32,944 bases of DNA from Gammaproteobacteria bacterium (GTDB lineage Bacteria; Pseudomonadota; Gammaproteobacteria; Steroidobacterales; Woeseiaceae), in contig JAOTWB010000028.1 in NCBI GenBank assembly GCA_029863125.1, forward strand, positions 1 to 32,944, given 5' to 3'. Within the stretch, counting starts at the first letter, position 1; every line of letters begins with the position of its first letter. Below the pieces are notes generated by a model, which saw only the letters and a program-made list of their open reading frames with translations, ran no database searches and had not been told where the DNA came from. The translations under genes were made by a program, and so were the position numbers. Shown in pieces: positions 4,981-32,693 of the stretch.

Positions 4981-4992
4981 TGCTGGCTCCTC

Positions 4993-10742: not shown

Positions 10743-10755
10743 GCATCCGTCTCCG

Positions 10756-12945
10756 TCAGGCGCCGCCATCCACGCGCGCCGGTTCCAAAATCAATGTCGC
10801 GAGCGGCGGTAGCCGCAATCGCATCGAGTACGGCCGGCCGCGATGGCCCGGCGAGGTAGCTTCATAAGCTGCTGCACCAAGACCGCCGCCGCCGTACTTT
10901 TCGCTGTCGCTGTTCAGCGCGACGCGGTATTCGCCCGCCAAAGGTACGCCAATCTGGTAGTCGTTTCTTACGACGGGCGTCAAGTTTACGACGCAGATGA
11001 TGATACCGCCGGATTTGTCCCGGCGCAGCCAGCTCAGGACGCTGTTGTCACGGTCATCCCACCGGATCCACTCGAACCCATCCCCGCTGAAATCAACCTC
11101 GTGCAGTGCCGGCGTGTCCCGGTACAGGCGATTCAGGTCGCGCACCAGTTTTTGCACGCCCTGGTGCGGTGCGTGCTGCAGCAGGTGCCAGTCGAGCGAC
11201 CGATCGTGATTCCATTCGTTGCGCTGGGCGATCTCGTTGCCCATGAACAGCAGTTTCTTGCCCGGGTGGGCGAACATGGCCGCGTAATAGGCCCGTAAAT
11301 TCGCGAACTGCTGCCAGTCGTCTCCGGGCATGCGCCCCAGTATCGAGCGCTTGCCGTGCACGACTTCGTCATGGGAGAGCGGCAGGACAAAGTTCTCGTT
11401 GAATGCGTAAACGAGACCAAAGGTCATTTTGTCGTGATGGTGTTTGCGATGAACCGGGTCCTCCGACATGTACGACAACGTGTCATTCATCCAGCCCATG
11501 TTCCATTTGTAGGTGAAGCCAAGCCCGCCCGCGTGAACCGGTTTTGATACGCCCGGCCATGCAGTGGATTCTTCGGCGAACGACGTGGCGCGATGCGCAT
11601 GAACCTCCGTATTGAGGCGCCGCAGGAACGCAACAGCCTCGAGGTTCTCGTTGCCGCCATACTCGTTCGGCAGCCACTCGCCCTGCTTACGCGAGTAGTC
11701 GAGATACAGCATCGAGGCGACGGCGTCGACGCGCAGACCGTCGATGTGAAACTCGCTGATCCAGTAAAGCGCGCTGCCGAGCAAATAGTTCATGACCTCG
11801 CGTCGGCCAAAGTTGAAGATCAACGTACCCCAGTCCGCGTGCGCACCTTTCCGAGGATCTTCATGTTCATACAGCGCGGTCCCGTCAAAACGGCGCAGGC
11901 CGTGTTCATCGTTCGGGAAATGCGCCGGCACCCAGTCCATCAGCACACCGATGTTATTGGCGTGGCAGCGATCGACGAAATAGCGAAATTCATCCGGTGT
12001 GCCGAAACGCTGGGTCGGCGCGAACAGACCGATCGGCTGATAGCCCCAGGAACCGTCGAACGGATGTTCGGATACGGGCATCAGCTCAATGTGCGTGAAG
12101 CCCATGTCGACAACATAGTCCACGAGCTCGTCGGCAAAATTTCGGTACGACAGGTAGCCGCCGTCATCCTTGCGGCGCCATGAACCGAGATGTACTTCAT
12201 AAATACTGATGGGCTTGTGGAGCCGCGGTTCAACGGTTAGGCGTTGCATCCACTCGCCGTCCTGCCAATCGTAGTCGCTGTCAAAAACGATCGATGCATT
12301 CCCCGGTGGCGGCTCATGATAGCTTGCGAACGGATCGCCCTTGAGCGGCAGGACGTTGCCGTTTCGGTCCTGAATCTCGTATTTGTACAATGCGCCGTCG
12401 CCGACGGCCGGTATGAAAATTTCCCAGATACCGTTGCCCGGATGCAGACGCATTACGTGCTGCCGGCCGTCCCAGCCATTGAAATCGCCAATGACGCTGA
12501 CGCGTGATGCGTTCGGTGCCCAGACGGCGAAACGCGTTCCGGCGATGCCTTGGAGCTGGCGCAGCTGTGCGCCGAGCTTCCTGTAGATGTAACGGTCCGA
12601 TCCTTCGCCCAAAAAGTACAAGTCCATTTCGCCCAAAGCAGGCGGAAATCGATAGGGATCTTCGATGACATAGGACAGACCGGAGCCATCCGTTATGCGC
12701 AGGGCGTAACGTCGTTTGCGGGGCGGCAAGAGTGCCTCGAACAGACCGCCGGCATGAATTTTCTTCATGTCGGCAATGGGTGCGCCCGCCGCATCGACCA
12801 GCTCTGCCCTGGCCGCGTGCGGCTGCAGCGTGCGCACAACCCGTCCCCCGGCTTCCGCGTGCGGGCCGAGTATGCCGAAGGGGTTGCCGTGACGGCCGGC
12901 GACGAGCGCCTCGTATTCACTGTTCCTGTCTGCTTTAGCGGCCAT
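10756..12945 (-). CDS. glgB: 1,4-alpha-glucan branching enzyme
   Basis: A 729-residue GlgB that introduces alpha-1,6 branches into glycogen. Two N-terminal CBM48-like beta domains ([31 protein letters not shown]) precede the GH13 barrel. Catalytic residues are Asp407 ([12 protein letters not shown]), Glu458 (AEESTAWPG) and Asp526 ([10 protein letters not shown]). Asp526 and Glu458 fall at the same numbers as in E. coli GlgB, which supports the chosen start. The frame is open up to 13179, but translation from there would run through the glgA coding region. The ATG at 12945 has GAGG just upstream and overlaps the glgA stop by 11 nt. A second ATG at 12957 is possible but has no ribosome site. 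Confidence 0.95.
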
Positions 12946-14497
12946 CGTCCTCGCCATATAGCGTTTCGATCGTAGTTTTGGCAGCGGTCGCCCAGTCGAA
13001 TCGGCGGGCCGCCGCAGCCTGGCAGACATTCTGCCACGCAATTGGGTCGCCGGAGCGAATGGACAGCGCACGCGTCGTGGTTCTGATGAATTCCCTGGCC
13101 TGCGCTTCCGGGCTGCGGCCATCGAAAACGAACCCGGTAACGCCGTCTTCGACCGTGTCCTTGAGGCCGCCGACGCCATGAACGATACAGGGTTGGGCGC
13201 CGCGCATCGCGAGCATCTGGCTGATGCCGCAGGGTTCGAAACTCGACGGCATCAGGAAGAGGTCGCCACCGCTGTAAAGCGGTGCCGCAAGGTCCTCCGA
13301 GTACCCCTGAAGAAAGACGATGTTTGGCCTTTGCCTCGCGACTTCCAGCATGCGTTCTTCGAGTTCCGGGTTGCCGTTTCCGAGCACCACGATCACGCTT
13401 TTCCCGCCAACAGCTTCGGCAATACGATCCAGCGGCGTGCTGCCGTCGTGGAACTTGTGCAGCAGCAGGGCCGTTTTTTGCTCGACCAGCCTGCCAACGC
13501 TCGTCATGAGGTGACTGGGCCGCCGTTTCGGCAAAGCGGCCAGGCGCTGGAGCGCGAGGCTGTGTGCCTCATTCGACGGCTGCTCCTTCTGCCAGGTCTG
13601 AAGCTGTGCCTCGATCATGCCGAGCAATCGCTGCCAGCCCGGGCGGCGACCGATCGGCTGGTCGTAATAACAGCCGTTGAGTATGCCGAACAGACGGCCG
13701 TCATCGCGCACCCGCGCAAGATCAACTTCCAGTCCTTCGCCGCCTATGAATCCAATCTCGGGATTACTCGGTCTGCAGATCTCGCCCGCGTAGGTAGGTG
13801 ATACCGTGCTCACCCGGTCCGCGAGGCGAATGGCACTGGCCATAGGGTTCACGCAGTCAGAGTAACGCGGGTCAACGATTGTCCCGTAATCCGGGCGCAG
13901 TTTCGGGTACCAGGCTTCGAGCGATGATTCATCGCCCCGAAAAGGACGCGTGCCCTGGTAGGAAAGATTGTGAATCGTAAGCACGGTGCGAATGTCGCGA
14001 AGACTGGCGAAATGCTCGGCATACTTCGCGAGAATCAGGTAGAAGGCGGCATGCCAGTCGTGCAGGTGCACGACGTCGGGCTGTTTTTCGCCGGCGCATA
14101 TCCACTCGGCCGCCGCCGCGCAATAAAAAGCAAACGTATTGGCGTCGCTCGCAAAAGGACGGGCCGCTTCGTCCCGATGGTAGATCCGCCCGCTGCCGTA
14201 TTGGGCGAACAAAGGGTGATCGAAAACGACGTTTCGTACGCTGCTGTCATCGGCCGGGATATCCCAGATATCGACAGGGTGCGAACTGCCGCGAAAGTCG
14301 ACGTCGATTGTCGCCAGCCGAGATGCACCCGGCAGTTTGTGCAGTGAGCCATACGACGGTGTCGCAACCGACGCCTGCCAGCCTTCCACCGACAGTGCAA
14401 GAGGCAGGTCACGAACGACGTCGCCCACGCCGCCGACCTTACCGCCGCTGAGGGCGCCGTTCTCCGACGCCAGGAAGATGACTGACCGGGTCTCGAT
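12935..14497 (-). CDS. glgA: Glycogen synthase GlgA (GT5), probable non-ATG start
   Basis: This GT5 enzyme elongates alpha-1,4-glucan from ADP-glucose. The C-terminal GT-B domain carries [11 protein letters not shown] and [10 protein letters not shown], and the N-terminal domain carries VVHLHDWH and TIHNLSYQG. The nearest conventional start is a GTG at 14428, but it lies inside the essential KVGGVGDVV nucleotide-binding motif, so it would remove the key lysine (codon 14440). In frame upstream, the residues [19 protein letters not shown] continue the typical GlgA N-terminus, yet no ATG, GTG or TTG occurs before the frame passes into glgC. Two ATC codons at 14500 and 14497 follow AGGA (14509-14506) with 5 and 8 nt spacing. 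I place the start at 14497 by inference, giving about 520 residues. A sequence error (ATG read as ATC) is a fair alternative. Confidence 0.85.
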
Positions 14498-14507
14498 GAT
14501 CGCTTTC

Positions 14508-15797
14508 CTAGCGTGTGAAGTGCAGATGCTGCCCGAGCATGTCAGGCGTAACCAGCGTCAGCCCGCTTTCCGTGACCCGAAACCCGCGCGCCCGGTCGGC
14601 GTCGTGGTCTAGACCTATGATGGTGCCGGAATCGATCCTCGCGCCGCGATCGATAATGGCCCGATTGATGGTGCAGTGCTGGCCGATATTCACCTCCGGC
14701 AGCACGACAGAATCGTTTACCTTGCTGTACGACTCGACGACACAGTCCGAAAACAACAGCGAGCGTCTTATGGTTGCGCCGGAAACGACGCAGCCACCCG
14801 ATACCATCGACTGGATGGCTTCGCCCTGCCGGTCCGGATCGTCGAATACGAACTTGGCGGGTGGCGACTGAATCTGGTGCGTCCAGATCGGCCAGACCTT
14901 GTCGTAAAGGTTGAGCTGCGGCGTTACCGACACCAGCTCCATGTTGGCTTCCCAAAAGGCATCGAGCGTACCGACATCGCGCCAGTACGCCTGGTCGCCT
15001 GTCTCCGGGTCACGCAGCGGGTAGGCATAAACACGGTAGTCTTTAATGATGGAAGGAATGATGTTGCGGCCGAAGTCATGCTGGGTGCCCGGCGTGTCGG
15101 CGTCCCGGATGACCTGTTCGTAAAGGAACTCGGTGTTGAAGACGTAGTTGCCCATGGACGCGAGGCACACGTCGGGTTTGCCCGGAACCGGGTTCGGTTT
15201 CTCGGGTTTTTCATGGAAGCCGATAATGCGGCCCTCCTCGTCTACCGTCATGACACCGAGCTCACCGGCCGCCTCGGCCAGCGGTACTTCGAGACAGCAG
15301 ATGGTCATATCCGCCCCCTCGTCGACGTGATAAGCGAGAAAGGAGCCGTAATCCATCTTGTAAATGTGGTCCCCTGCGAGGATCAGGACGAAACGTGGAG
15401 CATGCTGCCGAATGATGTCGAGATTCTGGTAGACGGCATCGGCCGTGCCGCGATACCACTCACCGCCGACCCGCTGCGAAGCCGGCAGGATCTCGACGAA
15501 CTCGCGTTCACCGGCACCGGAATTGAGCCAGGACCAACCGTGTAATAAATGGCGAATAAGTGAATGTGCCTTGTACTGTGTCAACACACCGATGCGACGA
15601 ATTCCCGAGTTAATACAGTTCGACAGCGGGAAATCGATAATCCGATACTTGCCGCCGAAATGAAGACCGGGTTTGGCGCGCCAGGTCGTCAGCTCGCGAA
15701 GCCGCGAGCCTTGCCCGCCCGCGAGAATCAGTGCCACCGTCTGCCGGGTCAGGCGACTGACAAATCGGGCTTCTTCCTTGAGTCGAGGTTCGTTCAT
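14508..15797 (-). CDS. glgC: Glucose-1-phosphate adenylyltransferase
   Basis: A 429-residue ADP-glucose pyrophosphorylase that makes ADP-glucose from ATP and glucose-1-phosphate, the committed step of glycogen synthesis. The nucleotidyltransferase domain shows [14 protein letters not shown] near residue 24, [29 protein letters not shown] and [11 protein letters not shown]. The C-terminal part has left-handed beta-helix repeats ([35 protein letters not shown]). Length is close to the E. coli enzyme. The ATG at 15797 is chosen because the family N-terminus ([20 protein letters not shown]) begins there; the longer open frame to 15914 has no similarity. It lies 70 nt after malQ, and its stop is about 11 nt upstream of the proposed glgA start. 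Confidence 0.96.
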
Positions 15798-15867
15798 CTT
15801 GCAACTCGTCCTTTCAGGCGTCGTGTATCGCGGCAAACTCCGGATACGCCCTTGCCGGTGAGTTGCC

Positions 15868-17436
15868 TCAGTGGGTGAGTTCGCGACCCGATGCCCGTAC
15901 CATGTCGGCCACATTGTCGCAAACTTTGCGGGTCAATTGTGCGTCAGTTACGCGCCAGCGCCAGTTGCCGCCAGGCTTTCCGGGTGTGTTGAGGCGAGCT
16001 TCAGATCCCAGGCCGAGATAGTCCTGCATAGGCGCGATTGCGAGCTGTGCCTCTGTCGAGAAAGCGGCCTTGATCAGATCATTGTGAATTGTCTCGGGTG
16101 TGCCGCCCGTGATGTCGAGGACGGCTTTCTGCGTGCGCTCGATTTCCTCTGCGCTGCGAATGTCGCCGGGGCTGCCGTGAAACCAGCCGATGGTTGTGTC
16201 GTTGTCGTGCGTGCCCGTGTAGCAGACGCTGTTCCGGCCCACGTCCGACAGCGCGAAATCGTCGTCGCACACGTCGAACTGCAGCACGCGCATGCCCGGA
16301 ATGTGGTGGCGGTCGCGCAGTGCTTCCACTTCCGGCGTGATGACGCCGAGATCCTCGGCCACGATCGGCAGTACCCCGAGCGATGCTTTCATTGCATCAA
16401 AAATCGCGTCTCCGGGACCGGGTTCCCAGGCGCCCACGCGCGCCGTCGCCGAGTCCGCCGGAATCGACCAGAAGGCCTCAAATCCCCGGAAATGGTCGAT
16501 TCTGACCAGATCAGTGAGTTTTGCTGATGCCTGCAGGCGATCGATCCACCACCGATAGCCGTTGGCGGCATGCTTGGCCCAGTCGTAGAGCGGGTTGCCC
16601 CAGAGCTGACCGTCTTCGCTGAAGTAGTCGGGGGGTACGCCTGCGACGCAGTCCGGTTGGCCGTCTTCCCCCAGGCGCAGGATGTCGCGATTGGCCCAGG
16701 CATCGGAACTGTCCAGCGCAATGTAAATCGGCATGTCGCCGAACAGCAGGATGCCGCTGGCGTTTGCATGATTGCGGAAGCGCTGCCACTGGTGGTCAAA
16801 AAGGAACTGGATGACCTTGATCGCCCCGATCGTCGCGGCCTCATCGACCTCGAGGTCCTTGAGCGCCTGTTCGTCGCGGTGCACGTATTCGGGCGTCCAC
16901 TCCGGCCAGGGACGCTCGCCGTGCCGGGTCTTGAGTATGCGGAACAGGGCATAGTCATGCAGCCAGGCAGCGTCGTTTGCCGCAATGAACGCGGCGCAGC
17001 GCGCCTGGACTTCGTCACTGGCTTCTTGTGGGAATCGTCTTGCCGCGGTGTCGAGCAACCGGTTCTTCCCCGGGATAAGGGCACCGTAATCCACGAAACC
17101 GGTGGGCAGTTTCGCCAGTTCTTCGACCTCGTGTTCCACAAGCAGTCCCATATCCACCAGGTCGCCGATGCTGATCAGCATCTCGTTGCCGGCAAACGTC
17201 GACAGCGGTTGATAGGGCGAGTCGCCGTAGGCCGTTGGTCCCGTCGGCAAAAACTGCCATACGCCCAGGTGCATGTCGCGCATCTTGTCGACGAACGCCC
17301 GGGCCTCGGCGCCGATCTCGCCAATGCCACAGGGTCCTGGCAACGACGCGATATGCAGGCAAACGCCTGCCCGCCGTTCGGTCGGCAGGATGGGCGGCTC
17401 GGTGTCACTCGTCGTTGGCTGGTCTTGCGGGTTCAT
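15868..17436 (-). CDS. malQ: 4-alpha-glucanotransferase (amylomaltase, GH77)
   Basis: A 522-residue amylomaltase that transfers alpha-1,4-glucan segments between maltodextrins and frees glucose in the cytoplasm. GH77 landmarks are [16 protein letters not shown] near the N-terminus, [25 protein letters not shown] with nucleophile Asp314, [11 protein letters not shown] with acid/base Glu361, and [13 protein letters not shown]. Length agrees with the compact bacterial type, without the long N-terminal extension of E. coli MalQ. It is the first gene of the glycogen operon. The ATG at 17436 has no clear ribosome site (upstream is AT-rich), so translation may be modest. The promoter must lie in the shared intergenic region with the divergent TonB receptor and its LacI-type operator pair. 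Confidence 0.96.
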
Positions 17437-17601: not shown

Positions 17602-20382
17602 ATGGCCAAGAAACGCCAGAGTGCGTCTTTAGTTGCAGACGAAACCAATAACCTGACTTTGAACGTCCGCCGCACGGCGCTGTCGCTTGCGGTTGCAGCG
17701 GCGCTGCCGGGCGCGATCGCCATGCCCGTGTCCGCGTACGCGCAGGATGCAGACGACGAGGTGATCGAGGAAATCATTACTACCGGCTACCGTCAGAGCC
17801 TCATGAATTCCATTGCCACCAAGCGAGATTCGTCTTCTATCGTCGAGGCAATTTCGGCAGAGGACATCGGCAAGCTGCCCGACTCATCAATAGGTGAATC
17901 GCTGGCGCGTTTGCCTGGTCTTGCCGCGCAGCGATTCGACGGTCGCGCTAACAAAATTTCGATTCGCGGCCTTGCGCCCGATTTCACAACCACAACGCTG
18001 AACGGCCGCGAACTCGTGTCGTCCGACAACAACCGTGCGGTCGAGTACGACCAGTTTCCGTCGGAGCTAATCACCGGCGCCACCGTTTACAAGACGCCGG
18101 ATGCCGCCCTCACTTCCCAGGCCGTGGGTGGCACGGTCGACATGCAGACGGTGCGTCCGCTGAACTACACGGATCAGGTTCTTGCGATGGGTCTGCGCGG
18201 TGAATACGCCCAGGAAGGCAAGCTCAACGGGGATACGGAGGACATAGGCTACCGCGGCAACATCGCGTGGATCGACCAGAACGAGGACGGCACTATTGGT
18301 TGGGCGTTCGGCTACTCGAGAATGTTCCAGCCGATCCAGGAAGAGTATGTGCATGTCTGGGGTTATAGCGATGTCACCGATGCGCAGGGTGAGAGTGGGC
18401 TGTTTATGGACGGCATCAAGCCCTTTGTGAAGTCGAATGAACTGACGCGAGACGGCGTGCTCGGTGTGGTTGAGTTTGCACCGAACGATCAGCTTCGGGC
18501 TCGCGTTGATGTGTTCTACTCGAAATTCGATGACGAGCAGACGCTGCGCGGTGCGGAAATCGCCGGCTACACGGCTTCTGACCGCGACATTCTCTCTGTC
18601 GATGGTGGCCTCGTGCAGCAAGGCACTTGGACAGGCCTCAGGACACAGAATCGCAACGACTTTTCAGATCGCGACGTGGAAACGAACGCGCTCGGGTTCA
18701 ATGTGACCTACGATCTGAACGACGCCTGGCGCCTCGAGGGCGACGTCAGTTGGTCCCGCGCTGTGCGCGAGTATGCCGCCAACGAAGTCTACTTCAGCGA
18801 TGGGCGCGGCCAGTCCGGCTCGACCGGCGAATTTACTTACACCCTGGGCGGCGGCAACGGGCTGAGTGTCGCTTCGGACCAGGACTTCTCCGATGCCAGC
18901 ATCTGGCAGCTGGGCGACAACCTAGGCTGGGGTGGGCCGCTGTGCACAGAGGCTCTGGGTTGGCAATGTGACAGCCAGGACGGGTTCCGCAATACGGAGA
19001 CGTCGGACGACGAAATGACGGCGATTAAGCTGGCAGCTGAGCGAATTATCGATAGTAATTTTGTGCAAAACGTTGAGTTCGGCGTGCGTTACGTGATTCG
19101 CGAAAAGGGACACTCGCGGACGGGTGAGTTCCTGACGCTGAATGATTATCCGAATACTGTTCCTGTTCCTACGGAGTGGCAGATAGGCCCGACCTCGCTG
19201 GATTTCATTGGCGTCGGCGGCATCATGAGTTTCAATGCCCGCGCCGCGGTGAATTCCGGCCTGTACTACTTCTCGCCGGAAAATAACATCGCAGCGGCAC
19301 TCAACCGTTGGGCGGTCGAAGAAGACGTGGCCAATTTGTATGCGATGGCCGAATTCGAGACCGAAATGTGGTCAGGTAACTTCGGCCTGCAGGCGGTGTA
19401 CACGGACCAGACTTCCATCGGAACGCAGGCTGGAACGACTTCGCAAGGCGTCGAGTTCAATAATGTCACGGAAGGCACCGATTTCTGGGAGTTGCTGCCG
19501 AGCATCAACGCGTCCTATCACATCAGTGATGACTGGAAGTTGCGCCTTGGCGTTGCCCGTATCCTCGCGCGTCCGCGCATCGAGGACATGCGTGCCAGCC
19601 GTGAGTTCAGTTTCAACGAGCAGAACATCAATGAAACCGACCTTGAGGATTCGCCATGGGGCGGCAATGGCGGCAATGCGTTCCTCGAGCCATGGATGGC
19701 CTGGCAGTTCGACGTCTCACTGGAAACCTACTTCGGTAGTTCCGGTTACGCCGCTTTGGCTGTTTACCACAAGGACCTGGAGAACTACGTCTACACCAAG
19801 CAGGTGCTCACGGACTTTTCAGGTGTGCAACTGCCGGCAATTATCGACCCGGTGCTCGATCAGGGATTTGTGTCGGCACCCGATAATGGTGAAGGCGGCT
19901 GGATCCGTGGTGTGGAATTTTCGGCATCGCTGCCGTTCGACCTGATGTCTGACAGCCTCAAGGACTTTGGCGCCTACGTCAGTGCGTCCTACACCGACTC
20001 GGAGGTCCAGGAGACGTCCAGCAGCCCGAAGCTGGAACTGCCTGGCCTCTCGAAGCTGGTGCTGAACGGCACGGTCTACTACGAGAACGACGCCGGCTTC
20101 CAGGCACGCGTAAGCGCGCGCCAGCGCGACGAGTTCCTTGCAGAATCATTTGCGATTGGTCTGTCTCGTCAGGAAACGACCGCCAAGAAGGAGACGATCG
20201 TCGATGCACAGTTCTCGTACGATCTTTCGAATGTCGGCGCCGAAGGGTTTTCCCTGTACCTGCAGGGGTACAACCTGACCAACGAGCCGTTCGTGCAATA
20301 CCTGGACGGCGACACAAGGAAGATCAAGAACTTCCACACGTACGGACGCAGCTATATGATTGGCTTCAACTACCGAAGGTAA
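17602..20382 (+). CDS. TonB-dependent outer membrane receptor, probable maltodextrin importer
   Basis: About 926 residues. An extended basic n-region precedes a hydrophobic signal segment (LSLAVAAALPGAIAMPVSAYAQ), as is common in this receptor class. A TonB-box-like IEEIITTGYR then leads into the plug domain (SSSIVEAISAEDIGKLPDSSIGESLARLPG, quoted in parts; IRGLAPDFTTTTLNGRE). The rest is a beta-barrel ending in YMIGFNYRR, with the terminal aromatic-rich strand expected for outer membrane insertion. The sequence style is that of the Xanthomonas/Caulobacter receptor group that includes the maltodextrin receptor MalA of Caulobacter. The ATG at 17602 has GGGGG 8-9 nt upstream; an upstream in-frame TTG at 17563 is not needed. 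No SusD-like partner is present. Substrate is inferred from the surrounding alpha-glucan genes. Confidence 0.92.
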   Translation: MAKKRQSASLVADETNNLTLNVRRTALSLAVAAALPGAIAMPVSAYAQDADDEVIEEIITTGYRQSLMNSIATKRDSSSIVEAISAEDIGKLPDSSIGESLARLPGLAAQRFDGRANKISIRGLAPDFTTTTLNGRELVSSDNNRAVEYDQFPSELITGATVYKTPDAALTSQAVGGTVDMQTVRPLNYTDQVLAMGLRGEYAQEGKLNGDTEDIGYRGNIAWIDQNEDGTIGWAFGYSRMFQPIQEEYVHVWGYSDVTDAQGESGLFMDGIKPFVKSNELTRDGVLGVVEFAPNDQLRARVDVFYSKFDDEQTLRGAEIAGYTASDRDILSVDGGLVQQGTWTGLRTQNRNDFSDRDVETNALGFNVTYDLNDAWRLEGDVSWSRAVREYAANEVYFSDGRGQSGSTGEFTYTLGGGNGLSVASDQDFSDASIWQLGDNLGWGGPLCTEALGWQCDSQDGFRNTETSDDEMTAIKLAAERIIDSNFVQNVEFGVRYVIREKGHSRTGEFLTLNDYPNTVPVPTEWQIGPTSLDFIGVGGIMSFNARAAVNSGLYYFSPENNIAAALNRWAVEEDVANLYAMAEFETEMWSGNFGLQAVYTDQTSIGTQAGTTSQGVEFNNVTEGTDFWELLPSINASYHISDDWKLRLGVARILARPRIEDMRASREFSFNEQNINETDLEDSPWGGNGGNAFLEPWMAWQFDVSLETYFGSSGYAALAVYHKDLENYVYTKQVLTDFSGVQLPAIIDPVLDQGFVSAPDNGEGGWIRGVEFSASLPFDLMSDSLKDFGAYVSASYTDSEVQETSSSPKLELPGLSKLVLNGTVYYENDAGFQARVSARQRDEFLAESFAIGLSRQETTAKKETIVDAQFSYDLSNVGAEGFSLYLQGYNLTNEPFVQYLDGDTRKIKNFHTYGRSYMIGFNYRR

Positions 20383-20407
20383 TTGTGTCTTGACATCGTC
20401 ATGAACG

Positions 20408-20440
20408 AACCCCCGTCGGGCAACCGGCGGGGGTTTTTTT
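20408..20440 (+). terminator. Rho-independent terminator after the TonB receptor
   Basis: A 10-bp stem CCCCCGTCGG / CCGGCGGGGG (one T-G wobble) with a 4-nt loop is followed by seven Ts (20434-20440). It starts 26 nt after the receptor stop and its T-run ends only 13 nt before the halogenase start. It should end most receptor transcripts and leave the downstream genes to read-through or to another promoter. Confidence 0.88.
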
Positions 20441-20453
20441 ACTTGAGCACACG

Positions 20454-21956
20454 ATGATGAACGAACAAGCGATTGAAAAACTGGTGATCGTCGGAGGTGG
20501 CACGGCCGGCTGGATGAGCGCCGCATTGATCAGCCGCTTGTTTGCAGGCACGTTGAACATCGAGCTGATCGAGTCCAACGCCATTGGCACAGTGGGGGTC
20601 GGCGAAGCGACAATTCCGCCTATCCAGGTGTTCAATGACCTGGCTGGCGTCGACGAACAGGAATTTCTGCGCGATACCAAGGCCACAATTAAACTTGCAA
20701 TTGAGTTTCAGAACTGGGGCGCGATTGGCGATCGTTATCTTCACGGTTTCGGTTTCGTCGGCAGAAATGTCGGCGCGATTTCGTTCCAGCACGCGTACCT
20801 GAAAGCCTTGGCGGACGGTGTCGCCGGTCCGCTTTCGGACTACTCATTGAATAACCTGGCCGCCGCCGCGGGCCGATTTAATCGCCTGGCGAGGATCGAA
20901 GATACGCCACTGCCCGGGATTACTTACGCCTATCATTTTGATGCGGGCCTGTACGCGAGATTCCTGCGTACACAGAGCGAGGCACGAGGCGTCAAGCGGC
21001 GCGAAGGACGCATCCAGGAGGTCCTGCTCGATCCCGATTCAGGCGGTGTGGCAGGTCTGAAGATGGAAGATGCTGTGGAAGTGAGCGGCGATTTCTTCAT
21101 CGACTGCAGTGGCTTTAACAGCCTGCTCTTCAACCAGTCGCTGGGTGTCGAATACGACGACTGGAGCGAGTGGCTGCTGTGCAATCGTGCTATTGCCGTG
21201 CCCAGCAGCAGCGAACCACGCTCGTTGCGACCCTACACACAAAGCATTGCACACCAGGCGGGTTGGCAGTGGCGAATACCGCTGCAACACCGGACCGGTA
21301 ACGGACATGTATATTGCGACCGTTTCATCAGCGAAGACGAAGCAACCCAGGTGCTCCTTGATAACCTGGAAGGCGAACCGCTCAAGGACCCTCTTTCGCT
21401 GCGCTTCACACCGGGCTGCCGCAAAAAGTTATGGCATCGAAATTGTGTTGCCCTAGGCCTCTCCAGCGGTTTCATTGAGCCACTCGAAAGCACCAGCATT
21501 CACCTGATTCAGATCGGTATTACGAATCTCTTAAAAGTCTTTCCGACGAAGGGCGACAATGCGGCCAAGGCGCGCGAGTACAACCGCCGTATGCGTTTTG
21601 AGTACGAGGCGATCCGTGATTTCATTATCCTCCATTATCACCAGACGAGCCGCGAGGACACGCCGTTCTGGAAGCACGTCAAGAATATGGACATCCCGAA
21701 GAACCTGCAGGATAAGATGGCATCCTTTTCGGAATCCGGGCACCTGTACCGCATCGATGATGAACTTTTCACCGAAGTGGGTTGGCTACAGGTAATGCTG
21801 GGGCAGGGCATTCGACCGAAGCAATACAATGCACTGGCTGATACGCTTTCGTCGGCGCAGCTCGGTGAATACTTGCAAAACTTGCACACGATCCTGAAAA
21901 CCACGGTTGATAGGCTGCAGCCTTATCCTGAATTCCTAAAGACCTGTTCAAAGTGA
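20454..21956 (+). CDS. Flavin-dependent halogenase, tryptophan-halogenase family
   Basis: A 500-residue FADH2-dependent halogenase homologue. The FAD-binding GGGTAGW motif is at residues 14-20, followed by GVGEATIPP. Lys80 (ATIKLAIEFQNW) aligns with the catalytic lysine Lys79 of PrnA. The halogenase motif W-x-W-x-I-P is at residues 271-276. Glu345-Ser346 in FIEPLESTSIH aligns with PrnA Glu346-Ser347. All residues needed for hypohalous acid generation and transfer therefore appear intact. The substrate is unknown; free tryptophan is not implied by the family name. Such genes are known beside TonB receptors in Xanthomonas, Brevundimonas and relatives, where some halogenate indoles in vitro. A reductase to supply FADH2 is not in the window. 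The stop overlaps the next gene's start by 4 nt (GTGA). Confidence 0.9.
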   Translation: MMNEQAIEKLVIVGGGTAGWMSAALISRLFAGTLNIELIESNAIGTVGVGEATIPPIQVFNDLAGVDEQEFLRDTKATIKLAIEFQNWGAIGDRYLHGFGFVGRNVGAISFQHAYLKALADGVAGPLSDYSLNNLAAAAGRFNRLARIEDTPLPGITYAYHFDAGLYARFLRTQSEARGVKRREGRIQEVLLDPDSGGVAGLKMEDAVEVSGDFFIDCSGFNSLLFNQSLGVEYDDWSEWLLCNRAIAVPSSSEPRSLRPYTQSIAHQAGWQWRIPLQHRTGNGHVYCDRFISEDEATQVLLDNLEGEPLKDPLSLRFTPGCRKKLWHRNCVALGLSSGFIEPLESTSIHLIQIGITNLLKVFPTKGDNAAKAREYNRRMRFEYEAIRDFIILHYHQTSREDTPFWKHVKNMDIPKNLQDKMASFSESGHLYRIDDELFTEVGWLQVMLGQGIRPKQYNALADTLSSAQLGEYLQNLHTILKTTVDRLQPYPEFLKTCSK

Positions 21957-23668
21957 TCGTGAAGCGCCTGCTACTCATTGCCCTGCTGGCGGCGCTATCC
22001 GCAGGGTGTGGAAATTCGGCGGGCGAGAGCAATAAACTATTCAGCAACCCGATCATCCCGGGCTTCGCGCCCGACCCGTCCATCGTTCGTGTCGACGACG
22101 ACTTCTACCTCGTCAACTCGACCTTCGAGTACTTTCCGGGTATCCCGATCTACCACAGCAGGGACCTCGTGAACTGGGAGCTGATCGGCTACGCGTTGAA
22201 CGATCCGCAGCAGGTCGACCTTGGCCGCATCAGGTCGAGCGACGGTATCCACGCATCAACGATTCGCTATCACGACGGTACTTACTACATCATCACGACG
22301 AACAACGTCGACGGCAACATGGTGAACTTCATCGTTACCGCGGCCAATCCACGCGGACCGTGGTCGGCACCACAAGTACTCGAAGGTGCACCGGGCATCG
22401 ACCCGTCGCTGTTTTTCGATGACGATGGCCGCGTATGGTATGTCGGCAATCACGTGCCGCCGGATCCGGAATTCGCGGGCCAGGCGGAGATCTGGCTGCA
22501 GCAAGTCGATATCGATTCAATGCGGCTGGTCGGCGAGCGCCACTATCTCTGGCGCGGCTGCTGCCAGGGCGTCTGGGCGGAAGGCCCGCATATTTACAAG
22601 AAAGACGGTTATTACTATCTCCTGATTTCGGAAGGCGGCACGGCCTACGAGCATGCGCTCGCCGTTGCAATCAGCCGGGAGATCACGGGGCCGTATCTGA
22701 ACAACCCGAGGAACCCGGTCCTGAGCCACCGGCAGCTCAGCTACGACCACCCGATCACGGGTGTTGGTCACGCCGATCTCGTGGAACTCGAGGACGGCCG
22801 GTGGTATGCCGTCGCATTGGGCTGGCGACTGGTGGACGGCATTCACGGCATCCTCGGCCGGGAGACGTTCCTGTTGCCCGTCACCTGGGAGACGGAGCCC
22901 TATTCCTGGAAAGAGGACAAGCTGACGTTTCCCGTCTTCAGTCCGGCGACCGGCAAGATCGAACTTCATTATCCGTTGCCGTTTGGTGGCGACAGCAAAC
23001 CAAGTGACGGCGAGTTCAGCGATAAATTCGATGCAAGAACACTCGACCTGCAGTGGAATTTCAGGCGCGCGCCCGAAAAGCGCTTCTATGATCTGGACGA
23101 TAATCCGGGATCGCTCAGGCTTGTGTTGCAGGCCGGAGCGCTCGGCGAACGCGAGCAATACAGCTTCATTGGCATTCGTCAGCGACATTTCGAGTTCGAT
23201 GCCGTAACGAAAATGACCTTCGCACCCGTCGGTGAGGAGGAAGCCGGTCTCGTCGTCATTCAGAACGATCGCTCGGCCTTTCTGATGACGATGTCGGCCG
23301 GGCCAGACGGGAACATGTTGAAACTTACGCAGGCGCTGCACGGCCAGTCGAAGCAACTCGATGCCGTGCCTTACAAGCATGACGCCGTGTTTTTAAGAGT
23401 GACCGGCGATTACCTTATCTATCGATTCCAGTATTCAGTCGACGGTGGGACCTGGACCACGTTGGGCGGCGATACAGATGGCACTGCTTTGTCGCCAGCC
23501 GCGATCGCCGGCTACAATTACACGGGCGTATACCTCGGACTGTATGCGACATCCAACGGTGCGGAGGCCCGGAACTACGCTGACTTCGAATTCTTCAGGT
23601 ACGAGCCGACGGAACACTCGCGTGACGACTGGTTCGAAAGACAGCTGGCAAATGAAGACAAACACTAG
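21953..23668 (+). CDS. GH43 family glycosidase lipoprotein (beta-xylosidase/arabinofuranosidase type) with C-terminal beta-sandwich
   Basis: A 571-residue lipoprotein with lipobox LSAGC, the lipidated Cys being residue 19. The five-bladed GH43 propeller carries the acidic triad: Asp41 (FAPDPSIVR), Asp150 (GIDPSLFFDDDG) and Glu210 (WAEGPHIY). From about residue 340 a concanavalin-like domain of the GH43 C-terminal type follows (DKFDARTLDLQWNFRR; GLVVIQNDRSAFL). Enzymes of this architecture usually remove xylose or arabinose from beta-xylosides or arabinosides, not alpha-glucan, which is odd in this locus. The start is GTG at 21953, overlapping the halogenase stop; a second GTG at 21959 would give a more standard lipoprotein leader. 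There is no clear ribosome site, so translation probably depends on coupling. Confidence 0.9.
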   Translation: MIVKRLLLIALLAALSAGCGNSAGESNKLFSNPIIPGFAPDPSIVRVDDDFYLVNSTFEYFPGIPIYHSRDLVNWELIGYALNDPQQVDLGRIRSSDGIHASTIRYHDGTYYIITTNNVDGNMVNFIVTAANPRGPWSAPQVLEGAPGIDPSLFFDDDGRVWYVGNHVPPDPEFAGQAEIWLQQVDIDSMRLVGERHYLWRGCCQGVWAEGPHIYKKDGYYYLLISEGGTAYEHALAVAISREITGPYLNNPRNPVLSHRQLSYDHPITGVGHADLVELEDGRWYAVALGWRLVDGIHGILGRETFLLPVTWETEPYSWKEDKLTFPVFSPATGKIELHYPLPFGGDSKPSDGEFSDKFDARTLDLQWNFRRAPEKRFYDLDDNPGSLRLVLQAGALGEREQYSFIGIRQRHFEFDAVTKMTFAPVGEEEAGLVVIQNDRSAFLMTMSAGPDGNMLKLTQALHGQSKQLDAVPYKHDAVFLRVTGDYLIYRFQYSVDGGTWTTLGGDTDGTALSPAAIAGYNYTGVYLGLYATSNGAEARNYADFEFFRYEPTEHSRDDWFERQLANEDKH

Positions 23669-24590
23669 ATGCCTGGTAATCGCCGGTTTCATGCTGCTGC
23701 AGTGCGGCTGTGCAACGGTCGAACAGCAACCAACGATCTACAGGCTGTATTTCCTGGGTGGCCAGTCGAACATGGAGGGTTTTGGTTACGTTGAAGAATT
23801 GCCCGGAGCAATCGCCACTTCGTCTGAACACGTAATGATTTTCGCAGGACAGATGGCGCTCGACAACGAGACGCACGGCGGGGTGGGTGTCTGGCAACCC
23901 CTTGAGCCGGGCTATGGCACCGGATTCAGGTCAGATGGCAAAACCAATCGGCTTTCAGATCGATTCGGGCCAGAGCTCACGTTCGGGCGGACGATGGCGG
24001 CGCACTCGCCCGGCTCGAAAATTGCGATCATAAAGTATGCGCTGGGCGGTTCCGGTCTGGCAGAAGGTGTCGGTTACGGCAATTGGTACCCGGATTTTTC
24101 GGTTGGCGCGGGCCTGAACCAGTACGACCATGCGTTGAAGACGATGCGTAATGCGTTCTCGCATTCCGACATCGACGGCGATGGGGTCGCCGATCGCCTG
24201 GTACCCTCCGGCATCGTCTGGATGCAGGGCGAGGCAGACGCCTACGACAGCCAGGCGGCTGCCGACGAATACCGCGCGAATATCGAGCGACTGATGGGCT
24301 TGCTGCGAGCCGCATTGCGTGTCGACGATCTGCCCGTCGTCATTGGAAAGATCACCGATTCGGGTATGGCGGACGACGGCAGCGTCATGGATTACATCGC
24401 CACCGTGCAGCAGGCGCAGCAGGATTATGTGGACAGCGATGCTTGTGCGGCCTACGTCACGGTTACCGACGGTCTCGCCTACCTCGACGACGGCTGGCAT
24501 TACGACACGGATGGTTTCATCCGGATGGGCACGGCGTTCGCAGAGGCAATGATCGCACTGGAGAAAGGATGCGCGCCGGCCGTGCATTAG
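23652..24590 (+). CDS. SASA-type carbohydrate acetylesterase, probable lipoprotein
   Basis: A 312-residue SGNH-like esterase of the sialate O-acetylesterase/acetylxylan esterase (SASA, CE6-like) group. Catalytic serine is Ser39 in GGQSNMEG; WMQGEADA forms the central conserved block; Asp280 and His283 (DDGWH) complete the likely triad, followed by GFIRMG. The N-terminus is hydrophobic with Cys18 and Cys20 (LLQCGC), suggesting export and perhaps lipidation, although the lipobox is not ideal. A DIDGDGVAD segment could bind calcium. The ATG at 23652 lies 17 nt inside the GH43 gene, and the stop lies 22 nt inside the amylase gene. Removal of acetyl groups would fit with GH43 action on acetylated xylan-type glycans. 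Confidence 0.85.
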   Translation: MKTNTRCLVIAGFMLLQCGCATVEQQPTIYRLYFLGGQSNMEGFGYVEELPGAIATSSEHVMIFAGQMALDNETHGGVGVWQPLEPGYGTGFRSDGKTNRLSDRFGPELTFGRTMAAHSPGSKIAIIKYALGGSGLAEGVGYGNWYPDFSVGAGLNQYDHALKTMRNAFSHSDIDGDGVADRLVPSGIVWMQGEADAYDSQAAADEYRANIERLMGLLRAALRVDDLPVVIGKITDSGMADDGSVMDYIATVQQAQQDYVDSDACAAYVTVTDGLAYLDDGWHYDTDGFIRMGTAFAEAMIALEKGCAPAVH

Positions 24591-26572
24591 TACTGCTGAT
24601 ACTGGCAGCGGTCTCAGCAGGCTGTGGGGGAGGTGGCGGCTCAGCGCCGCCGGTGCAGCCACCACCCCCGGATCCTGGAACGACGGTAACGGTCTATTAC
24701 CTGCGGGCAGACCCGTCCTACGATGGCTGGGGACTGCATCTCTGGGGCGGTGCAATCGCCGCCAGCGTCGCGACCGAATGGTCGTCGCCGCGACTGCCCG
24801 ATCGCATCGAGAACGACGCCGCCGTTTTCGAGATACCGGTCATCGATGGCGCAATGGTCCTCAACCTGATTGCACACAACGGGGATCTGAAGAGCCCCAT
24901 CTACGATCTTGGCATCGTGCCGGAAACGTTCGGCACCGAGGTCTGGATCGTTCAGGACGAGGTCGCGTCGCTGAGTGGAAACATCGGCACGCCATTCGCC
25001 ACCCAGTCCGCGGCACTGGCGGCCCTGAACGCACTGGGCAACAAATCAGCAGAATTGGATCTGTCAGTCGTGGTTCCGAATGATGTGGACTCGGGCCTTG
25101 CCGCCGACTGGGCCGATTCGGCGAGCTTTCTGGAGATCTACGTGCGCGGCTACCAGGACTCGGACGGCGATGGAATCGGCGACCTGCAGGGACTGATTTC
25201 GAGGCTTGACTACCTGCAGTCGCTCGGCATCACGGGCATCTGGCTGATGCCGGTCACGGAAAGCGCAGACAACGATCACGGCTACGCGGTGCAGGATCAT
25301 CGGGCGATCGAGAGCGACTACGGCACGATGGCCGATTTCGAGAGCTTGCTCGATGAAGCGCATGCGCGCGGTATTGCCATCATCATCGACTACGTGATGA
25401 ATCACGCGGCGAGCACGAACGCGCTGTTTCTCGACGCGTCGACAACGGCAGTTAATGACAAGCGCGACTGGTTCGTCTGGGAGGACGTGAAACCGCAGGG
25501 ATGGAACACGTTTGCCGGTGATCCCTGGCGCAATAACGGCAACGGCTGGTACTACGGCATATTCTCTGCGCTGATGCCCGACTTCAATCTGCGCAACGCT
25601 GAAGTGCGTGAGTACCACAAGGACACCCTGCGATTCTGGCTCAACAAGGGCGTGGACGGTTTTCGCTTCGACGCCGTCGGTGTGTTGTTCGAGAACGGTT
25701 CGACAAACTGGGAAGACCAGGCCGAGAATCACGTCCTGCTCGGCGAAGCACAGGCAGTCATTGATGGCTATAACAAGCGTTTCCTGGTCTGCGAATCGCC
25801 GTCGGATCCGGCCGCGTACGCGAACGGTGCATCCTGCGGGCGTGCATTTGCGTTCCAGACTGCGGGTGCGATTCTGAACTCGCCGCGCAACAACGCTGTG
25901 GACGGCACCTTCGTGAATCAGCTCAACCGGCCCGACACGGACCGCATGCCGCTGATTCTCTCCAACCACGACAGCTTTGCCGGCGATCGGCCCTGGAACC
26001 AGCTGAATGGTGAAGTCGGAGACTACAAGCTGGCGGCCGCGAGCTACCTGCTTGCGGCGCAGACGCCTTTTAGCTACTACGGTGAAGAAATCGGCATGGC
26101 GAATGCAGCCGGTCTCTCGGGAGACCCAGCGCTGCGGACGCCGATGAGCTGGACCAGCGACCCGAACAACGCGGGATTCTCTGCGGTCATGCCGTTTCGC
26201 GAGCTGTCCGCCAATGTATCGACGAACAACGTTGAGGATGAGGAGGGCGATTCGAATTCCCTGCTCGAGTACTACCGCGGCCTGTACCAGCTTCGGCGGT
26301 CTTATCCCCTGGTCGCGAACGGCGCCCTGGACGTGCAGTCGAATGGCGGCGATCCGGTGCTGCTACTGACGCGCTCGGGGGCGGGAGGCAGCGTCGTGAT
26401 CGCGATCAACTACGACTCGGTGGTACGCCAGGCCGTCGCGTCAACGGCGCTGGCCGATGCCACATTCGAAGCCGTATTTGGGCTAAGCGGCCAGTTGACT
26501 GCCGACGGTGTTGGCAAGCTCACGCTCAACGTACCCTCGCGATCAGCGGTGGTTTACGTCGGACAGCCCTGA
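24569..26572 (+). CDS. Surface alpha-amylase lipoprotein with CBM41-like domain (GH13)
   Basis: A 667-residue lipoprotein (lipobox VSAGC) with a Gly-rich and Pro-rich tether after the cysteine. A pullulanase-type CBM41 domain (YYLRADPSYDGWGLHLWGG, about residues 40-140) binds alpha-glucan. The GH13 domain starts near residue 185 with the calcium loop DSDGDGIGDLQG. Region I is DYVMNHAA, region II GFRFDAVG with nucleophile Asp368, region III LVCESPSD with Glu409, and region IV SNHDSF with Asp468. SYYGEEIGMAN lies further on. It would cut starch, glycogen or pullulan at the cell surface, a SusG-like role. GGAG lies 5 nt before the ATG, inside the esterase gene. Its 3' end overlaps the convergent fusion gene by 30 nt. 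Confidence 0.92.
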   Translation: MRAGRALVLLILAAVSAGCGGGGGSAPPVQPPPPDPGTTVTVYYLRADPSYDGWGLHLWGGAIAASVATEWSSPRLPDRIENDAAVFEIPVIDGAMVLNLIAHNGDLKSPIYDLGIVPETFGTEVWIVQDEVASLSGNIGTPFATQSAALAALNALGNKSAELDLSVVVPNDVDSGLAADWADSASFLEIYVRGYQDSDGDGIGDLQGLISRLDYLQSLGITGIWLMPVTESADNDHGYAVQDHRAIESDYGTMADFESLLDEAHARGIAIIIDYVMNHAASTNALFLDASTTAVNDKRDWFVWEDVKPQGWNTFAGDPWRNNGNGWYYGIFSALMPDFNLRNAEVREYHKDTLRFWLNKGVDGFRFDAVGVLFENGSTNWEDQAENHVLLGEAQAVIDGYNKRFLVCESPSDPAAYANGASCGRAFAFQTAGAILNSPRNNAVDGTFVNQLNRPDTDRMPLILSNHDSFAGDRPWNQLNGEVGDYKLAAASYLLAAQTPFSYYGEEIGMANAAGLSGDPALRTPMSWTSDPNNAGFSAVMPFRELSANVSTNNVEDEEGDSNSLLEYYRGLYQLRRSYPLVANGALDVQSNGGDPVLLLTRSGAGGSVVIAINYDSVVRQAVASTALADATFEAVFGLSGQLTADGVGKLTLNVPSRSAVVYVGQP

Positions 26573-30824: not shown

Positions 30825-32693
30825 TTATTTTTTCTTTACTTCGAGCAGCAGCACGGAGCGTGGCCCGACTTCCAGCGAACCTGACAGTACGTAGGATTTG
30901 CCTGACAGCACGTCGACGGCCGGCTGTCCCGGGTCCAGCCGTTCGTGGAATCGATCGAGATCCAGTTTCCTGGCTTTCTTGCCGCGGTTGAATACGACCA
31001 TGACGCTCTCGTCATCGTTGTAGCGGAAATAGGCATAGACGTTGCCGATGGGCGAATACTGCATGAGTTTACCGCGGTGGATAACGTCTGCGTTTTTGCG
31101 CCAGTTCAGCAGTTTGCGCATGAATCGTTGCGCATCCAGTTCCTTCTCGCTCATGCCTGTGCCGGTGAAAGCATTGCGCCTGTCGCCTTCCCAACCGCCG
31201 GGGAAGTCCATGCGCAAGGCACCGTGACTCTCCGTGCCCGGGTGCGACATCAGGATTTCAGTGCCATAGAATACCTGCGGGATGCCGCGCATCGTGAGAT
31301 AGAAAACCGTCGCGATGCGGAACAGCGCGTAGTCCTCATCCAGCTGCGTGTAAATGCGGCTCATGTCGTGGTTGTCCGGGAAGATCATCAGGTTGAACGG
31401 GTCGGCGTACAGGAAGTCATGCCCGAGCATTTCGTAGACCGGGGTCCAGACACTGCCCCAGGGTTTCTCAGGATCCGTCAGTGATTGCTTCATAACGATC
31501 TGCAGGGGGAAATCCATAAGGCTCGGCAGTGACGATTCGTAGCCATCGTGGTTTTTCTTGCCGCGCTGCCAGTACGAGACGATCGCCGGGCTCGGGCTCC
31601 ATTCCTCGCCGACGATATTGAAATGCGGATACTCGTCCATGATGCGACGCGTCCACTCGCTCATGAAATGTTTATCGGGATACGGGTACGTGTCCTGCCT
31701 AATCCCGGAGAGCCCGACGTACTCGATCCACCATAATGAATTCTGGATGAGGTAATCGGCCAGTAGCGGATTTCTTTGATTGAGGTCGGGCATCGTCTCC
31801 ACGAACCAGCCGTTGGCATGTGCGGCCTTGTCAAAAGCCGAGGCGTATGGATCCTGGTTGGTCGTGCGCGCATGTGACGTTATGGTCTTGCTGTCCGGCA
31901 GGTTATACCAGTCCGACGTTGGCAGATCGTCACTCCACCAGTGCCCGCTACCGGCATGATTGGCAATCATGTCCTGGATGATGCCGATACCTTTGCCACG
32001 AGCGGCTGTGACGAACTCGCGGTAACTTTCATTGCTGCCGAAACGCGGGTCGACCTTGTAGTAATCCGTTGTCGAGTAGCCGTGATAGGACGCCCGGGAT
32101 ACGGCATTCTCGAGAATCGGGTTGAGCCAGATCTGTGTGAACCCCATATCCGAGATGTAATCCAGATGCTGCAAGATACCGCGAATATCGCCACCGTGAC
32201 GGCCATAATTGTCTTTACGGTTCAGCTTGTCGTCATAGCCATCGATCGAATCGTTGCCTTCGTCTCCATTTGCAAAGCGATCCGGCGTGATCAGGTAAAC
32301 GACGTCCGCGGAACTGAATGCCTTCGTATAGGCAGGATCCGCATTTTTTTCGCGCAGTTCGTAACTGTAAGACAGTGTCTGCTCCGGCCCTGTGAATTCG
32401 AGTTCGAACGTCCCGGGATCGGCCGATTCACCGATATCGAGATAGACGAACAGGTAGTTGGGGCTGTCGCCGCGCTCGCTGCGGATAATCTCCACACCGG
32501 CGTAATCGACCGAAGGCGACAGCTCGCTGACGTTGTCGCCATGTACCAGCAACTGGAGTTCCCGATGTTTGAATCCTTGCCACCAGAAAGGCGGCTCCAC
32601 GCGTTCTATGTCGTCTGCGCCGGCCGCAAGAGCCGAATCACTGAAACCCAGGAGCAGGCAGCAGCCGGCCGCGATGAATGCAAGTTTCGTCAT
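30825..32693 (-). CDS. Periplasmic cyclomaltodextrinase/neopullulanase (GH13, SusA-like)
   Basis: A 622-residue exported GH13 enzyme. Signal peptide 1-23 ends at SALA. The N-terminal domain (VEPPFWWQGFKHRELQLLVHGDN) is the typical cyclomaltodextrinase N-domain seen in SusA-type neopullulanases. The catalytic barrel has region I DMIANHAGS, region II GIRQDTYPYP with Asp334, region III VGEEWSPS with Glu363, and region IV PDNHDMSR with Asp443. The C-terminal beta domain ends in SVLLLEVKKK. It would linearise cyclodextrins and cut imported maltooligosaccharides or pullulan fragments in the periplasm. AGGGGG lies 4 nt before the ATG at 32693. It is the first gene of a two-gene operon with the GH31-GH13 fusion and divergent from the MFS permease. 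Confidence 0.94.
   Translation of the reverse strand: MTKLAFIAAGCCLLLGFSDSALAAGADDIERVEPPFWWQGFKHRELQLLVHGDNVSELSPSVDYAGVEIIRSERGDSPNYLFVYLDIGESADPGTFELEFTGPEQTLSYSYELREKNADPAYTKAFSSADVVYLITPDRFANGDEGNDSIDGYDDKLNRKDNYGRHGGDIRGILQHLDYISDMGFTQIWLNPILENAVSRASYHGYSTTDYYKVDPRFGSNESYREFVTAARGKGIGIIQDMIANHAGSGHWWSDDLPTSDWYNLPDSKTITSHARTTNQDPYASAFDKAAHANGWFVETMPDLNQRNPLLADYLIQNSLWWIEYVGLSGIRQDTYPYPDKHFMSEWTRRIMDEYPHFNIVGEEWSPSPAIVSYWQRGKKNHDGYESSLPSLMDFPLQIVMKQSLTDPEKPWGSVWTPVYEMLGHDFLYADPFNLMIFPDNHDMSRIYTQLDEDYALFRIATVFYLTMRGIPQVFYGTEILMSHPGTESHGALRMDFPGGWEGDRRNAFTGTGMSEKELDAQRFMRKLLNWRKNADVIHRGKLMQYSPIGNVYAYFRYNDDESVMVVFNRGKKARKLDLDRFHERLDPGQPAVDVLSGKSYVLSGSLEVGPRSVLLLEVKKK

Follow-up and report, generated by a model that had tools for sequence, protein, structure and literature searches.

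A flavin-dependent halogenase gene that is inherited with the TonB-dependent receptor gene upstream of it in predicted alpha-glucan loci

Among the described flavin-dependent halogenases closest to the one studied here, BrvH has a substrate site open to solvent and weak activity on indole. It brominates indole and prefers bromide; in the available part of that paper its natural substrate is not named, and indole is perhaps not the native one (PMC5945002). In Caulobacter and Xanthomonas campestris, maltodextrin loci of the MalA/XCC2469 type (carbohydrate utilization containing TonB-dependent receptor, or CUT, loci) are known, and XCC2469 was, in the accessible portion of the report, the sole receptor gene of its study to be induced by maltose (PMC1790865). 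The subject of this paper is a stretch of 32,944 nt from a gammaproteobacterium of the family Woeseiaceae (assembly GCA_029863125.1, contig JAOTWB010000028.1, positions 1 to 32,944; hereafter the window), in which 71 nt separate the 3' end of a TonB receptor gene from a downstream halogenase gene. A preliminary description of the window had tied halogenation to glycan chemistry through a chain of overlapping genes behind the halogenase. The comparisons below showed that the halogenase follows the lineage of the receptor and not that of the glycan enzymes.

In an order-wide survey of 296 genomes, the receptor (E <= 1e-90) was present in 55, and the halogenase (E <= 1e-100) was found in 48 of those 55 versus 51 of the 241 receptor-less genomes (overlap determined by eye). 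The exceptions were fetched together with other unlinked receptors, plus linked ones as a contrast. From 89 alpha-like receptors we used 71 mal-type loci (receptor plus alpha-glucan genes), 61 with a linked halogenase and 10 without; this 61:10 is not a rate, because loci L152–L171 and part of L132–L151 were fetched for having no halogenase listed next to their receptor (although four of L152–L171 did prove to hold one in their stretch). Omitted from the 89 were eight unlinked receptors whose stretch lacks alpha-glucan genes, one whose stretch holds a halogenase at another place, six that have a halogenase close by but not adjacent, and three at a contig end. Receptors shorter than 780 aa were excluded here and from the residue, column and motif comparisons given below. 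A PF04820 match (E <= 1e-20) was absent from the genomes of three of the 10 halogenase-less loci (G083, G270, and G310), and the other seven genomes had 1 to 10 matches elsewhere.

On the receptor tree of the 71 loci, halogenase presence required a single change of state, versus a mean of 9.6 and a minimum of 6 in 200 shuffles. For trees of other genes, using the loci that have the gene, the numbers of changes (shuffle means in parentheses) were 6 (6.4) for the major facilitator superfamily (MFS) transporter, 3 (3.7) for the LacI-type repressor, and 4 (3.5) for GH97; GH77 was omitted because just one halogenase-less locus had it, and the MFS set contains some distant members with 26–28% identity to their best match. 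Among the 28 loci with both receptor and MFS, the seven halogenase-less receptors formed one clade with support of 100. That clade was rejected by the data for MFS (approximately unbiased test, p-AU 1.8e-5; 7 of 28 loci), LacI (3e-80; 4 of 26), and GH97 (9e-42; 4 of 14). In a pair of loci from one genus, L176 with the halogenase and L160 without it, identity was 84% for MFS, 83% for GH97, and 72% for GH13, and only 36% for the receptor; in a second one-genus pair, L112 and L132, it was 76% for GH77, 74% for GH13, and 34% for the receptor. We read these patterns as exchange of the receptor and halogenase as a pair, or replacement of the pair by another receptor, within loci that are otherwise held in common.

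Tree distances for halogenase and receptor were correlated (r = 0.70, n = 59). One rival explanation is physical linkage alone, with receptor and halogenase traveling as a block of DNA and having no functional connection. The short gap of 71 nt fits that explanation, and co-transferred genes can correlate without interacting. GH77 argues against it. This gene adjoins the receptor on its other side in 14 of 15 GH77 loci (determined by eye), and in those 15 loci r was 0.913 for halogenase and receptor, −0.05 for halogenase and GH77, and 0.06 for receptor and GH77; because the receptor's other direct neighbor does not correlate, adjacency alone does not explain the halogenase-receptor correlation. 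The pairing also recurs with an unlike receptor type in loci L068 and L080, and we consider linkage alone quite unlikely.

Gene neighborhoods of relatives were compared as well. Eighty named loci were picked on halogenase sequence alone, as the best 80 of 107 with a short peptide pattern in common with the window protein, and 20 stretches of the same family were added. Genes were called with our own caller, and gene families were single-linkage clusters named by eye or through one Pfam-scanned representative. The neighbor upstream of the 80 matched halogenases was a TonB receptor on the same strand in 24, a Cupin_8 protein in 26, another halogenase in 8, and something else or a contig end in 22; alpha-glucan genes lay no more than 9 kb away in 20 of the 24 that follow a receptor. 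A TIGR01782-like receptor was present within the fetched stretch in 62 of the 80. In the block of the tree that holds the window (42 rows, counted by eye), a TonB receptor immediately preceded 38 halogenases, and 37 had alpha-glucan genes within 9 kb. None of these 42 rows had GH1, GH3, or GH16 clusters within 9 kb, and none had SapC or Cupin_8 within two genes; rows of the latter kind sit in other blocks. The linked pair was found in 17 of 24 family stretches inspected; of these 17, 6 contain SASA and 15 contain GH77. The fixed partner of the halogenase in the window's clade is the upstream TonB receptor, in predicted alpha-glucan loci.

Other arrangements of halogenase genes were also seen. 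Most of L089–L111, as well as L127 and L128, mainly from Duganella and relatives, contain five-gene modules in the order receptor-halogenase-SapC-Cupin_8-halogenase. Relatives of Cupin_8 elsewhere are protein hydroxylases, and with that role the modules would fit the tailoring of a receptor. Seven alpha-glucan loci (L073, L076, L115, L116, L131, L173, and L182) carry a second halogenase beside GH97, GH13, or the first halogenase, and these second copies have no receptor directly upstream on their own strand. In L068 (6907–11515) and L080 (248–4925), the gene just upstream of a halogenase encodes a different kind of TonB receptor, made of CarboxypepD_reg plus a barrel, and ATP-binding cassette transporter genes are present too; in L068 a PF10091 putative glucoamylase gene lies next to the pair. 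This is a separate receptor-halogenase pairing. In L040 (7483–11506), a halogenase with no receptor in its stretch adjoins a gyrB-like gene (determined by eye).

The overlaps behind the window halogenase were read from the DNA and are as first described: 4 nt for halogenase/GH43, 17 nt for GH43/SASA, and 22 nt for SASA/GH13, where the first presumes the GTG start at 21953, since a start at the GTG at 21959 would remove it. All three downstream products have lipobox-like cysteines (determined by eye). The preliminary description proposed to check whether the neighbors of halogenase homologs are conserved, and this was borne out in part: they are non-random, with alpha-glucan genes in the 37 of 42 rows noted above, but not one of the 80 named relatives had a GH43 or SASA cluster within 9 kb (some stretches end at a contig edge). 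In the L113 ortholog, 80% identical, the halogenase is followed directly by GH13. GH43 was the next gene in 4 of 14 linked family loci in which the next gene was visible, and the order halogenase-GH43-SASA also occurs in L112, L122, L124, and L125. In other loci, too, the halogenase overlaps its following gene by 4 nt, whether that gene is GH13 (e.g., L032, L034, L035, L048, and L049) or GH43 (L112, L122, and L124), and in L125 a 38-nt gap between halogenase and GH43 takes its place. GH43 and SASA are therefore optional genes of halogenase loci, and translational coupling to them was rejected as an explanation.

The overlap chain in the window and the recurrence of its gene order favor halogenation of phenolic or indolic groups on plant or algal polysaccharide fragments, the first option of the preliminary description. 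That target now seems very unlikely. Besides the optional character of GH43 and SASA, matching glycan loci that use a different receptor are without the halogenase, so the overlap chain no longer ties halogenation to glycan chemistry, and the conserved pathway is that of alpha-glucan. Alpha-glucan has no phenolic groups.

The halogenase itself appears catalytically intact. The PF04820 profile matched it with 613.8 bits over 456 of 458 positions, and K80, W271-Q-W273-x-I275-P276, E345, and S346 were invariant in 36 aligned sequences that include it, in agreement with the preliminary account of these motifs. Values of dN/dS were 0.068 and 0.061 relative to two 80%-identical orthologs, with dS close to saturation; the gene is under strong purifying selection. 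No signal peptide was visible in the protein sequence by eye, again as first described. Three related, very small genomes of 1.4–1.5 Mb that are 88–90% complete (G046, G073, and G094) each retain one halogenase, 45% identical.

Because the halogenase is co-inherited with the receptor, it would work on or with something specific to that receptor. The explanation we tentatively prefer, with less than even confidence, is that this halogenase-family protein may halogenate an aromatic residue, probably a tryptophan, of the receptor chain. The locus would import maltodextrins, and the halogenase would modify the receptor chain in the cytoplasm; we place this step ahead of receptor export because the halogenase has no visible signal peptide. 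A hypothetical site is Trp443 (W443), the sole invariant tryptophan in 36 aligned linked receptors (L140 and L141 are outside this alignment). In the receptor model it lies in a long segment between strands 421–425 and 461–482, where confidence is lower (block means of 65–67). Of the 61 linked receptors, 59 have Trp at position 443, and the residue there is Tyr in all 10 halogenase-less mal receptors; among nine columns fixed in the linked receptors and missing from the halogenase-less ones W443 is the only Trp. A W-[GST]-G motif was found in 51 of 61 alpha-type linked receptors and 21 of 26 other linked ones. No halogenase-less mal receptor had it (n = 10), and among seven other unlinked receptors it occurred once; this motif was picked post hoc, after the sequences had been seen, and some of its counts were derived from printed fractions. 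A halogenated loop tryptophan might, speculatively, tune sugar binding. The N-region of the signal peptide was not longer in linked receptors than in the others. A broader proposal, that a whole class of bacterial halogenases would be receptor-maturation enzymes, each halogenating tryptophan in glycine-rich loops of the TonB receptor cognate to it, ahead of that receptor's export, with Cupin_8 and SapC near other pairs perhaps doing related work, is in our judgment rather unlikely. We know of no tryptophan halogenation of outer-membrane receptors as a protein modification.

A small aromatic compound that is imported or bound only by this type of receptor could also be the substrate, with the common ligand driving the co-evolution. 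Such a ligand accounts for the co-inheritance equally well, and the solvent-open site and weak indole activity of BrvH, as given in the available part of its description (PMC5945002), are in line with it. A cytoplasmic enzyme would, however, need an importer in the inner membrane, and in the one family tested, MFS, halogenase distances did not follow those of the transporter (r = 0.012, n = 21, versus 0.716 for halogenase and receptor in the same loci); moreover, the neighboring enzymes are alpha-glucan enzymes. We regard a receptor-specific ligand as a serious but doubtful candidate. Alternatively, a halogenated indole or phenol might be a signal or defense compound released during feeding, with the receptor a mere partner in expression. 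Coupling to feeding loci does recur, and indole bromination by BrvH (PMC5945002, in the portion available) would suit such a product. For a single diffusible compound, neither co-divergence with the receptor nor the presence of several paralogs in one genome (G272 and G274, for example, have 10 matches apiece) would be expected, and no gene for natural-product biosynthesis was found in the 16 window proteins scanned, a subset of the window open reading frames (ORFs). This alternative is unlikely.

For the preferred explanation, halogenation of the receptor chain, the gap between the two genes bears on the amount of enzyme. Of 67 gaps between receptor and halogenase, 46 contain a terminator-like hairpin (shuffles gave a mean of 0.9); none was found in 20 gaps 3' of the halogenase or in 65 stretches 5' of the receptor. 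In the 46 gaps with a hairpin, a median of 39 nt separates the scored T-tail from the start called for the halogenase; in the window this spacing is 11 nt. A spacer of about a dozen nucleotides after the T-run is too short for a promoter, and halogenase mRNA would then arise by read-through past the hairpin; expression of the halogenase thus likely depends on read-through, and the enzyme would be scarcer than the receptor.

Several observations weigh against the receptor as substrate, or against so close a tie to it. When nine other unlinked alpha-like receptors were added to the receptor tree (80 rows), the number of state changes rose to five. Receptor distances also correlate with those of MFS (0.46) and LacI (0.35), and halogenase distances correlate with GH97 (0.58, n = 10) and weakly with LacI (0.23, n = 22). 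Among the named loci, 18 of 80 had no TIGR01782-like receptor in their stretch, and two of these follow another TonB receptor type. Two linked receptors, L140 and L141, have Tyr at position 443. The W-[GST]-G motif is present in 8 of 9 alpha-like receptors with no halogenase nearby or next. One of these is L153, whose genome (G267) lacks any PF04820 match at E <= 1e-20. Receptors that have a halogenase near them, though not as the next gene, carry the motif as well, in 3 of 6 alpha-like and 6 of 18 other cases. Of the 26 other linked receptors, most are close relatives (Duganella and kin). After correction for the tree, with only four independent pairs, neither W443 nor the motif was significant, and W443 was dropped as a proven halogenation target. 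Finally, hairpins are common 3' of receptors in general: they occurred when the next gene was a halogenase (56 of 87), when it was another same-strand gene (13 of 30), and in halogenase-less mal loci (3 of 7). A terminator special to halogenase operons was therefore rejected in favor of a feature of receptor ends.

Features of the window are collected in Table 1.

Table 1. Features of the window discussed in the text
Feature	Coordinates	Strand	Basis
CBM48-GH13 enzyme, GlgX-like as inferred from position	6202..8241	-	Pfam scan
Glycogen/starch phosphorylase	8241..10769	-	Pfam scan
GlgB-type branching enzyme	10756..12957	-	Pfam scan
GlgA-type starch/glycogen synthase	12935..14428	-	Pfam scan
GlgC-type nucleotidyltransferase	14508..15797	-	Pfam scan of longer ORF 14508-15914
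GH77 4-alpha-glucanotransferase, divergent from receptor	15868..17436	-	Pfam scan
TonB-dependent receptor, TIGR01782 (TonB-Xanth-Caul) type	17602..20382	+	TIGR01782, 581.8 bits versus cut-off of 310; model pLDDT 83.5
Receptor Trp443 codon (counted from ATG 17602), long loop; hypothetical halogenation site	18928..18930	+	
Intrinsic-terminator-like hairpin with T-run, between receptor and halogenase	20407..20440	+	Minimum free energy -28.9 kcal/mol, z -5.35
Flavin-dependent halogenase family protein, PF04820, BrvH/Xcc4156-like, 500 aa	20454..21956	+	Profile, PDB matches, model
GH43 with beta-xylosidase-type C-terminal domain, predicted lipoprotein, optional gene	21953..23668	+	PF04616 and PF17851
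SASA-type carbohydrate esterase, predicted lipoprotein, optional gene	23652..24590	+	PF03629
GH13 with PUD (pullulanase-associated) domain, predicted lipoprotein	24569..26572	+	PF00128, PF03714
GH31-GH13 fusion protein, 1419 aa	26543..30802	-	Pfam scan
GH13 cyclomaltodextrinase-like	30825..32693	-	Pfam scan

A glycogen/starch gene set flanks the receptor-halogenase pair on both sides. The receptor ORF is open from TTG 17563, and ATG 17602 is the preferred start. In a fold search with the receptor model, the best 50 matches listed were distant receptors, mostly of siderophore types, and no solved relative was found by sequence at E <= 0.001. The source assembly is 2.49 Mb with a completeness of about 74%, and its single PF04820 match is the window halogenase. 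Three genes of tyrosine-breakdown type (glutathione transferase-like, fumarylacetoacetate hydrolase-like, and hydroxyphenylpyruvate dioxygenase) lie at 2795–6072, some 11 kb away from the receptor. The related loci L126, L129, and L132 have beside them ORFs of about 1680 aa that cluster with the GH31-GH13 fusion protein.

That the halogenase tracks the receptor narrows the search for substrates of BrvH-type enzymes to the receptor or its ligand, and action on either one would give a puzzling group of enzymes a job that can be tested. The halogenase-less sister loci, including the one-genus pairs L176/L160 and L112/L132, are natural controls. Should the receptor be the substrate, its halogenation would add a new type to the modifications of outer-membrane proteins; should it not be, the place to look is the ligand of a defined receptor type.

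The pairing of TonB receptors with halogenases is not itself claimed as new. Among the literature matches listed, in a search that left subscription journals mostly uncovered, no title dealt with halogenases of TonB receptor or sugar loci, and in the text of the MalA/XCC2469 paper the word halogenase has 0 occurrences (PMC1790865). As in MalA/XCC2469-type maltodextrin loci, the window combines a TonB receptor, here of the TIGR01782 type, with alpha-glucan enzymes. An MFS transporter and a LacI repressor were not found in the window, which is itself cut at both ends; a sugar transporter and a LacI-type repressor occur in relatives (e.g., L032, L034, and L154). The free-tryptophan halogenases RebH, PyrH, Thal, and BorH are like the window enzyme in catalytic core and in fold (TM 0.87–0.91 by query length), but differ from it in having, among the matches listed, 29–34% identity and an rmsd (root-mean-square deviation) of 2.7–3.7 Å. 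For PrnA, compared by sequence only, the phmmer alignment ends at query residue 409, short of the C-terminal region. The halogenase model (pLDDT 93.4) has its best fold matches in Xcc4156 (PDB 6y1w), the Pseudoalteromonas sp. L11 halogenase (9luq), and BrvH (6frl), with which it has the full-length fold in common (TM 0.94–0.95 by query length, rmsd 1.6–2.1 Å, identity 41–48%). These three are also its best PDB matches by sequence, and on sequence and model together the window enzyme is assigned to the BrvH/Xcc4156 group as a new member.

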